A program made the translations under genes and the position numbers. Shown piece by piece: positions 9,293 through 10,056 of a stretch of DNA of 35,054 nucleotides (the stretch's first letter is position 1; every line of letters starts with the position of its first letter). The stretch is from a virus: IMG/VR virus record IMGVR_UViG_3300002144_000660, positions 1 to 35,054 of that record; one strand, given 5' to 3'. The notes under the pieces were generated by a model. The model saw only the letters and a program-made list of their open reading frames with translations, had not been told where the DNA came from and ran no database searches.

Positions 9293-9475
9293 ATGGCAAA
9301 AAATAAAGAATTAAAAGTAGAATTAATTAATGAGTTATCATTTTTGGTAGGGTTACAAGATAAAGTTTGGAAATATCACCCAAACAACCCAAATGCAGAT
9401 AGCATTGTTGATGAATATGCTAAACTTCAAATGGATATTGAAGCAATTGAAGAACAACTTTCAAAAATCGACTAA
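9293..9475 (+). CDS. Small coiled-coil hypothetical protein
   Basis: A 60-residue helical protein. Its two heptad-like segments (KVELINELSFLVGLQDKVW and VDEYAKLQMDIEAIEEQLSKI) are joined by HPNNPNADS, suggesting a short antiparallel helical hairpin. It has its own promoter and is the last protein gene before the RNA island. Function unknown. Confidence 0.6.
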   Translation: MAKNKELKVELINELSFLVGLQDKVWKYHPNNPNADSIVDEYAKLQMDIEAIEEQLSKID

Positions 9476-9483
9476 CTCTAAAT

Positions 9484-9579
9484 AGGGGGAGTAAAACGTA
9501 ATATCCTAAGATCACAATCGACGGATTGCTTAGGTCGGGACCTTGATGCTGAAAGCGCGCTATAAAGGTGAAGCCCCCT
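9484..9579 (+). ncRNA. Putative multi-branched structured RNA next to tRNA genes
   Basis: A 96-nt element closed by AGGGGG (9484-9489) pairing with CCCCCT (9574-9579). Inside, CCTAAG (9505-9510) pairs with CTTAGG (9529-9534) and continues as CAATC/GATTG (9515-9519/9524-9528) around GACG, leaving a 4-nt bulge ATCA. A second arm is ACCTT (9540-9544) with AAGGT (9565-9569), enclosing GATGCTGAAAGC and the self-complementary AGCGCGCT (9554-9561). The result is a three-way junction. There is no T-arm, so it is not a tRNA, and I cannot match it to a known ribozyme or riboswitch. It ends 6 nt before tRNA-Leu, so it may be processed from the same transcript. Confidence 0.55.
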
Positions 9580-9585
9580 TAATTT

Positions 9586-9669
9586 GCTACTGTGGTGGAA
9601 TTGGTAGACACGTGGGACTTAAAATCCCATTCTGATTGTGGAGTGCGGGTTCGATTCCCGCCAGTAGTA
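9586..9669 (+). tRNA. tRNA-Leu (anticodon TAA)
   Basis: The acceptor stem GCTACTG pairs with CAGTAGT (one G-T wobble). The anticodon stem TGGGA/TCCCA encloses CTTAAAA, giving anticodon TAA for UUA codons. A long variable arm fits class II Leu, and the T-arm is GCGGG-TTCGATT-CCCGC. No CCA is encoded. UUA is heavily used in this AT-rich phage. Confidence 0.93.
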
Positions 9670-9677
9670 CAATTTAT

Positions 9678-9751: not shown

Positions 9752-9760
9752 CAAAAAAAC

Positions 9761-9837
9761 AGTCATGTATCTCCTCAAGCTTATACCTTGTAGAAAGAGT
9801 AATTGGTTACATATGGGTTCAATTCCCATCTTGGCTA
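9761..9837 (+). pseudogene. Degenerate tRNA-like sequence
   Basis: A perfect T-arm, ATGGG-TTCAATT-CCCAT (9813-9829), is followed by CTTGGCT and discriminator A. AGTCATG (9761-9767) can pair with CTTGGCT at six of seven positions. The middle does not fold into normal D- and anticodon arms: no 5-bp stem with a 7-nt loop sits at the right distance, and only a small GTAA/TTAC hairpin is visible. Most likely a decayed tRNA or a tRNA-like processing signal. Confidence 0.45.
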
Positions 9838-9859
9838 CAGTGGATAAAACCACACATTT

Positions 9860-10026: not shown

Positions 10027-10056
10027 AAGGGAGATAGCTTGGCTATCACCCTTTTT
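10027..10056 (+). terminator. Strong intrinsic terminator closing the tRNA island
   Basis: The stem AAGGG-a-GATAGC (10027-10038) pairs with GCTATC-a-CCCTT (10042-10053) with a single A-A mismatch and loop TTG, and runs into TTTTT (10052-10056). This is the clearest Rho-independent terminator in the window. Confidence 0.9.

Follow-up and report, generated by a model that had tools for sequence, protein, structure and literature searches.

Positions 9484 to 9579 of the window (the whole 35,054-nucleotide stretch of viral DNA analysed here) hold an element, which we call E1, that is best explained as encoding, within a phage tRNA transcription unit, a structured non-coding RNA of small size (about 85-100 nt). 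Compensatory changes maintain its three-way-junction fold, composed of helices P1, P2/P2b, and P3, and do so on the strand that codes for the tRNAs. At least 45 related virus fragments keep this shape despite changed letters, so that E1 is a real RNA gene. The element and its neighbors in the window are as follows.

9293-9475, + strand: 60-aa open reading frame (ORF) of the array leader; in 33 of 47 loci, L094 among them, E1 is preceded by a homologue
9484-9579, + strand: E1, the whole three-way-junction RNA; covariance-model match of 123.6 bits (by a model trained in part on the window); covariation across 38 distinct homologues
9484-9489, + strand: P1 5' strand, A GGGGG, partner of 9574-9579; compensatory UGGAG/CUCCA (L081) and AGAGG/CCUCU (L135)
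9490-9501, + strand: start of the J1/2 strand, AGUAAAACGUAA; A-G, AAAC, and UAA invariant, G/A at one site (37 rows)
9505-9510, + strand: P2 5' strand, CCUAAG; relatives have CCAAAG/CUUUGG, CCCAAG/CUUGGG, and CCAAAU/AUUUGG
9515-9519, + strand: P2b 5' strand, CAAUC; relatives have CAGUC/GACUG, CUAUC/GAUAG, and CAACC/GGUUG
9520-9523, + strand: GACG tetraloop of P2b, a proposed kissing loop; conserved, with GAUG in 1 of 37
9524-9528, + strand: P2b 3' strand, GAUUG; same compensatory changes as the P2b 5' strand
9529-9534, + strand: P2 3' strand, CUUAGG; same compensatory changes as the P2 5' strand
9535-9539, + strand: J2/3, U N GGG, all invariant except N
9540-9544, + strand: P3 5' strand, ACCUU; relatives have ACUCU/(A/G/U)GAGU, ACCAU/GUGGU, and ACUUU/AAAGU
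9548-9556: interior of the second arm (P3), GCTGAAAGC
9554-9561: interior of the second arm (P3), AGCGCGCT
9555-9560, + strand: GCGCGC palindrome in the P3 loop, a proposed homodimer kissing loop; in all 38 distinct sequences (GCGCGU in one)
9565-9569, + strand: P3 3' strand, AAGGU; same changes as the P3 5' strand
9570-9573, + strand: J3/1, GAAG, invariant
9574-9579, + strand: P1 3' strand, CCCCC U; same compensatory changes as the P1 5' strand
9586-9670, + strand: tRNA-Leu(UAA), the next gene (ARAGORN and Rfam RF00005)
10033-10053, + strand: terminator-like hairpin and T-run 3' of the last tRNA (consensus match only)

The closing stem, the two-part hairpin, the second arm, and both of its interior sequences lie where a preliminary description of this DNA had placed them, base for base. 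That description was also right that E1 lacks a T-arm and ends 6 nt before tRNA-Leu(UAA), which starts at 9586; neither ARAGORN nor RF00005 calls the element a tRNA. Its designation as a three-way-junction RNA of no recognized family holds as well, since Rfam 15 returned four tRNAs only in the window, nothing within 9484-9579 even at E<=10, and nothing but tRNAs in 12 related loci. Folding of the single sequence gives the proposed junction, with a minimum free energy of -25.8 compared to -22.9 +/- 2.9 for shuffles. Because this energy is ordinary (z -1.0), the lone sequence would not have been proof of structure.

Pattern scans of IMG/VR together with a covariance model (R1) recovered 46 related loci, from 42 datasets other than the window's, for a total of 47 loci and 38 distinct sequences. 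Over an 80-column core, mean pairwise identity is 84%, with a minimum of 70%. These phages form a group in which the baseplate gene most resembles that of Immutovirus, a genus of Flavobacterium phages: by baseplate protein, the nearest named relatives are Flavobacterium phage immuto (46%) and, at 45%, Microcystis phage Mel-JY01. A blastn search of 50,697 phage records returned nothing credible (one chance match at E 4), BLAST against plasmids returned no relative, and the E1 model had no real match in Immutovirus immuto, Mel-JY01, or a 484-kb uncultured phage; a 14-bit match in Mel-JY01 reflects low-complexity G/C runs. Model R1, run under strict filters and with no positive control, likewise had no match in 296 genomes sampled from a single phylum, that of the Algoriphagus genome (G014) holding locus L016, which may not be the phylum of the host. 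Scanning bacterial and archaeal genomes with a 17-mer gave 65 stretches, none of which, on a quick check, carried the rest of E1.

Covariation was counted on 37 distinct rows (alignment A4), with L094 left out and the P3 tip cut out; MAFFT had misplaced a gap in P3 of alignments A1 and A3. Pairing is retained in 99.1% of 777 helix cells. The preliminary description was to fall if the stems of homologues lacked compensatory changes, and such changes are there: both sides have changed in 10 of 21 pairs, compared to 4.5 in shuffles, and each of the four helices contains some of the changed pairs. None of 500 shuffles scored as high on four of five measures, and sliding the partners destroys the signal. 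Furthermore, double changes on the same branch number 19, against a mean of 1.7 and a maximum of 7 for random re-pairing of columns, on a tree that was built from the same columns. Since the patterns used to find homologues fix different columns in each scan, this covariation is not a product of how homologues were selected. Conservation extends to unpaired bases, 20 of 32 of which are invariant, including AG..AAAC.UAA, GA.G, U.GGG, and GAAG. A pseudoknot between ACGU of J1/2 and the GACG loop finds no support, as L078, L082, L093, and L094 have ACAU with the loop unchanged.

Among the helix cells, G-U occurs 22 times and A-C once, which indicates that selection acts on the RNA of the + strand, the strand of the tRNAs. 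This asymmetry bears on whether E1 could be a feature of the DNA, such as a recombination site or folded single-stranded DNA for the exchange of tRNA cassettes. The varying position of E1 in the array would fit such a feature, but the base pairs point to RNA of one strand. A small protein gene was considered along with it, given that an ATG in the 3' half of E1 opens a frame in the window that continues into tRNA-Leu; many homologues, however, lack that ATG (L007, L011, and L078 are examples). We regard the chance that either is correct as negligible.

The P3 arm comes in two types. In the long type, found in 39 loci including the window, P3 carries a large end loop with GCU-NNN-AGC-GCGCU. In the short type, found in eight loci (L011, L125, L127, L128, L130, L131, L132, and L136), the arm is a plain 7-bp hairpin, ACCUUCA/UGAAGGU (ACUUUCA/UGAAAGU in L130), with a 7-nt loop, GCGCGCA (GCGCGUA in L136). 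The earlier reading of the second arm thus stands for the stem ACCTT/AAGGT, but not for the inner GCT-NNN-AGC hairpin, whose sides are invariant and so show no covariation, and which is replaced in the eight short-type loci. What the loops of both types have in common is the palindromic hexamer alone. The palindrome had been pointed out in the preliminary description; its core GCGCG[C/U] is kept in every homologue, and the GCGCGU of L136 is still self-complementary via G-U. The predicted probability that the hexamer is unpaired is about 0.24-0.59 for the long type (the window's) and 0.97-1.00 for the short type.

E1 fills a tRNA-like slot in the array. It lies between tRNA-Leu(UAA) and tRNA-Arg(UCU) in 20 of 47 loci and directly before tRNA-Leu in 16 (the window and 15 others); in the remaining loci it precedes tRNA-Gly, follows tRNA-Met as the last element, or stands without any tRNA. 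Its placement "at the head of the tRNA island" is therefore true of the window but not general. Its spacing is that of a tRNA: the gap to the preceding tRNA is usually 3-5 nt (or 12-27 nt), and the gap to the following one is 6-10 nt in most loci and 14-18 nt in a few, or larger where another spacer RNA intervenes. The strongest evidence that E1 has a role of its own comes from the sequence of L094, where the syntenic leader ORF is followed by E1 and then by a terminator-like hairpin (GGGGGGATAGCGAAAGTTATCCCCCCC TTTTTG) that starts about 35 nt after it, with no nearby tRNA. The E1 copy of this locus has a compensatory change in P2 (CCAAAG/CUUUGG) and has lost one P3 pair on both sides. L094 is one contig, and its tRNAs could lie elsewhere in the phage genome. 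Nevertheless, the retention of E1 where every nearby tRNA has been lost, with a terminator-like hairpin close 3', speaks for a stable RNA acting in trans rather than for one that works in cis on tRNA processing or antitermination. Along with the varying place of E1 in the array, it counts against the tRNA-processing role suggested in the preliminary description.

These observations weigh on the idea that E1 is a cis-acting element of the tRNA transcript, that is, a put- or nut-like antitermination signal or an RNA-processing signal that helps polymerase or nucleases through the array. E1 does come first in the array in 16 loci, the window's among them, and a boxA-like sequence, GTTCTTTRANATA, lies just upstream of it in six (L007, L010, L078, L079, L082, and L084). 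Yet the first tRNA could not be served in the 20 loci where E1 sits behind tRNA-Leu, E1 is the last array element in L009 and L012, and no downstream tRNA accompanies it in L094; we consider a cis element decidedly unlikely. Cleavage of the array transcript by E1 as a self-cleaving ribozyme would suit its compact three-way junction and many invariant unpaired bases, which are also seen in nucleolytic ribozymes. But the flanks differ between loci, no flanking base outside P1 is invariant, and no ribozyme family in Rfam matches even at E<=10, a search that covers known classes. The self-cleavage raised in the preliminary description thus found no support, and we give it very little chance.

Two further alternatives were weighed. 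E1 could be a base-pairing regulatory RNA, in which messenger RNAs, and not a second copy of the loop, are the partners of GCGCGC. Its location is suited to action in trans and the loop is accessible in the short P3 type, but six to eight GC-rich letters offer little specificity and conservation covers the junction as well as the loop, so that such a regulator seems very unlikely. Alternatively, E1 might be an anti-defence decoy that mimics an RNA used or cleaved by host defence, comparable to the Racr RNAs, which mimic CRISPR repeats. RNA decoys have been described (PMC10651486), as has a tRNA-linked anti-defence locus of phage T6 (PMC13096335), and the unpaired bases of E1 are strongly conserved. 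No similar host RNA was found, however, in Rfam or in the 296 genomes of one phylum (strict filters, no positive control). A decoy is possible, if unlikely.

Our preferred account is that of a non-coding RNA gene within the tRNA unit whose product is co-transcribed, trimmed, trans-acting, and dimeric, and we give this account as a whole an even chance. E1 would share a transcript with the tRNAs and the leader ORF, and the host enzymes that process the tRNAs would also cut it free; in most loci the 5' end of the next tRNA lies 6-10 nt away. The product would probably be a stable RNA acting in trans. More tentatively, two molecules might join via the self-complementary GCGCGC loop of P3, aided by the GACG loop of P2b; the invariant junction might bind a putative phage or host protein; and the dimer might be the working unit during infection, as a decoy or scaffold. 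The homodimer is proposed because each arm tip carries a motif that also occurs in kissing dimers of retroviruses. In HIV-1, three palindromes predominate in the dimer initiation loop, GCGCGC among them, and in the RNA of murine leukaemia virus, loop-loop contacts form between GACG tetraloops (PMC5874298; PMC516450). In both viruses, as in E1, the motifs sit on hairpin tips, but the likeness is one of short motifs and implies no common ancestry, and kissing by E1 is a proposal. The partial pairing predicted for the hexamer inside the long-type molecule weakens the case for a dimer, as does the one member with GAUG in place of GACG. The conserved loops could equally serve protein binding or tertiary contacts within one molecule.

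E1 is a new RNA family within a loosely known set of phage tRNA-array RNAs. By place and size, its nearest precedent is the pair rnaC and rnaD of phage T4 (species 1 and 2 RNAs), which at 139 and 119 nt lie in the tRNA cluster directly beside tRNA-Arg. These are stable late RNAs of unknown function that have been checked by Northern blot (PMC9697503); like E1, they are small non-tRNA RNA genes in a phage tRNA array, and they are not in Rfam either. They differ from E1 in sequence and fold, and rnaC has a T-arm-like hairpin at its 3' end that E1 does not. With cmsearch filters off, the best hit of the E1 model was 9.0 bits (E 0.5) and fell outside both genes; they are not homologous to E1. The packaging RNA (pRNA) of phage Phi29 is another phage RNA, of about 120 nt, with a closing helix, two arms, and intermolecular loop-loop contacts. 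Its layout is similar to that of E1, but it belongs to a different type of phage, and nothing here ties E1 to DNA packaging.

GOLLD and ROOL are likewise phage RNAs found near tRNA islands, with function unassigned as for E1, and both form homo-oligomers (PMC12286853). E1 matches neither Rfam family. It is, as had been remarked, far smaller: GOLLD RNAs are often longer than 800 nt and the folds of both families are elaborate, whereas E1 has about 96 nt and one junction. We consider it rather unlikely that phage tRNA-array RNAs building RNA-only multimers form a class with E1 as its smallest known member, a pared-down version of the cages of GOLLD and ROOL. In that case, the two kissing sites of each molecule (GCGCGC and GACG) could give closed dimers or larger rings, and such multimers could serve during infection to retain or shield a factor of the phage or of the host.

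The leader ORF just before the array encodes a conserved protein of about 60-70 aa with the motif LW.(Y/F)HP.NP and no Pfam match. No homologue was found upstream of E1 in L081, L091, L098, L134, and L135, and the protein is thus not an obligatory partner of E1. A tblastn search with the 60-aa ORF returned nothing, though homologues exist in the E1 loci, so this negative is uninformative. The boxA-like GTTCTTTRANATA also occurs in array spacers and before genes (L007:7636-7648, L010, L078, L082, L084, and elsewhere) and is not present in the window's array. Such sequences also stand in rRNA leaders, and antitermination by Nus factors may operate in the arrays.

Annotation of phage tRNA arrays usually stops at the tRNAs. 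With E1, their spacers prove to hold a well-supported RNA family that Rfam lacks; T4 rnaC and rnaD have been known but not explained. The covariation of E1, its two size types, and a natural tRNA-less variant make the role of array-borne RNAs directly testable. The E1 loci add a second RNA family and several candidates in the spacers. The second family, AGAGAGG-AGUGAAGCU ... GAAAGACCCGAA-CCUCUCU, occurs in 15 E1 loci (L001:5358-5448, L002:4677-4767, L004:4168-4287 on the - strand, L093:475-601, L135:8884-9000, and others). It has an inner helix or pseudoknot, GGGUUU/AAACCC (GGCAUU/AAUGCC in L004), is absent from the window, and has no Rfam match in the loci scanned. In addition, a tRNA-like spacer RNA at 9757-9842 of the window and at L093:685-770, called by neither ARAGORN nor Rfam, has a T-arm that is perfect (UUCAANU loop), an acceptor-like stem of 5 bp, and no normal D or anticodon arm. 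In the T-arm as well as in the stem, the two copies differ by compensatory changes; the T-arm recalls the T-arm-like hairpin in which T4 rnaC ends. Further recurring candidates lie in the tRNA arrays of L010, L078, L081, L082, L083, L085, and L092, with the sequences CUGAGUCUAGCC..., UGUAUGCAAUUAGCUCCU..., GCAGUCA...CAAAGUGGAGCUA...GUGGC, GCCGGGAGUUA...ACCCGG, and GAGCGGGUAAAAAGUUCA....
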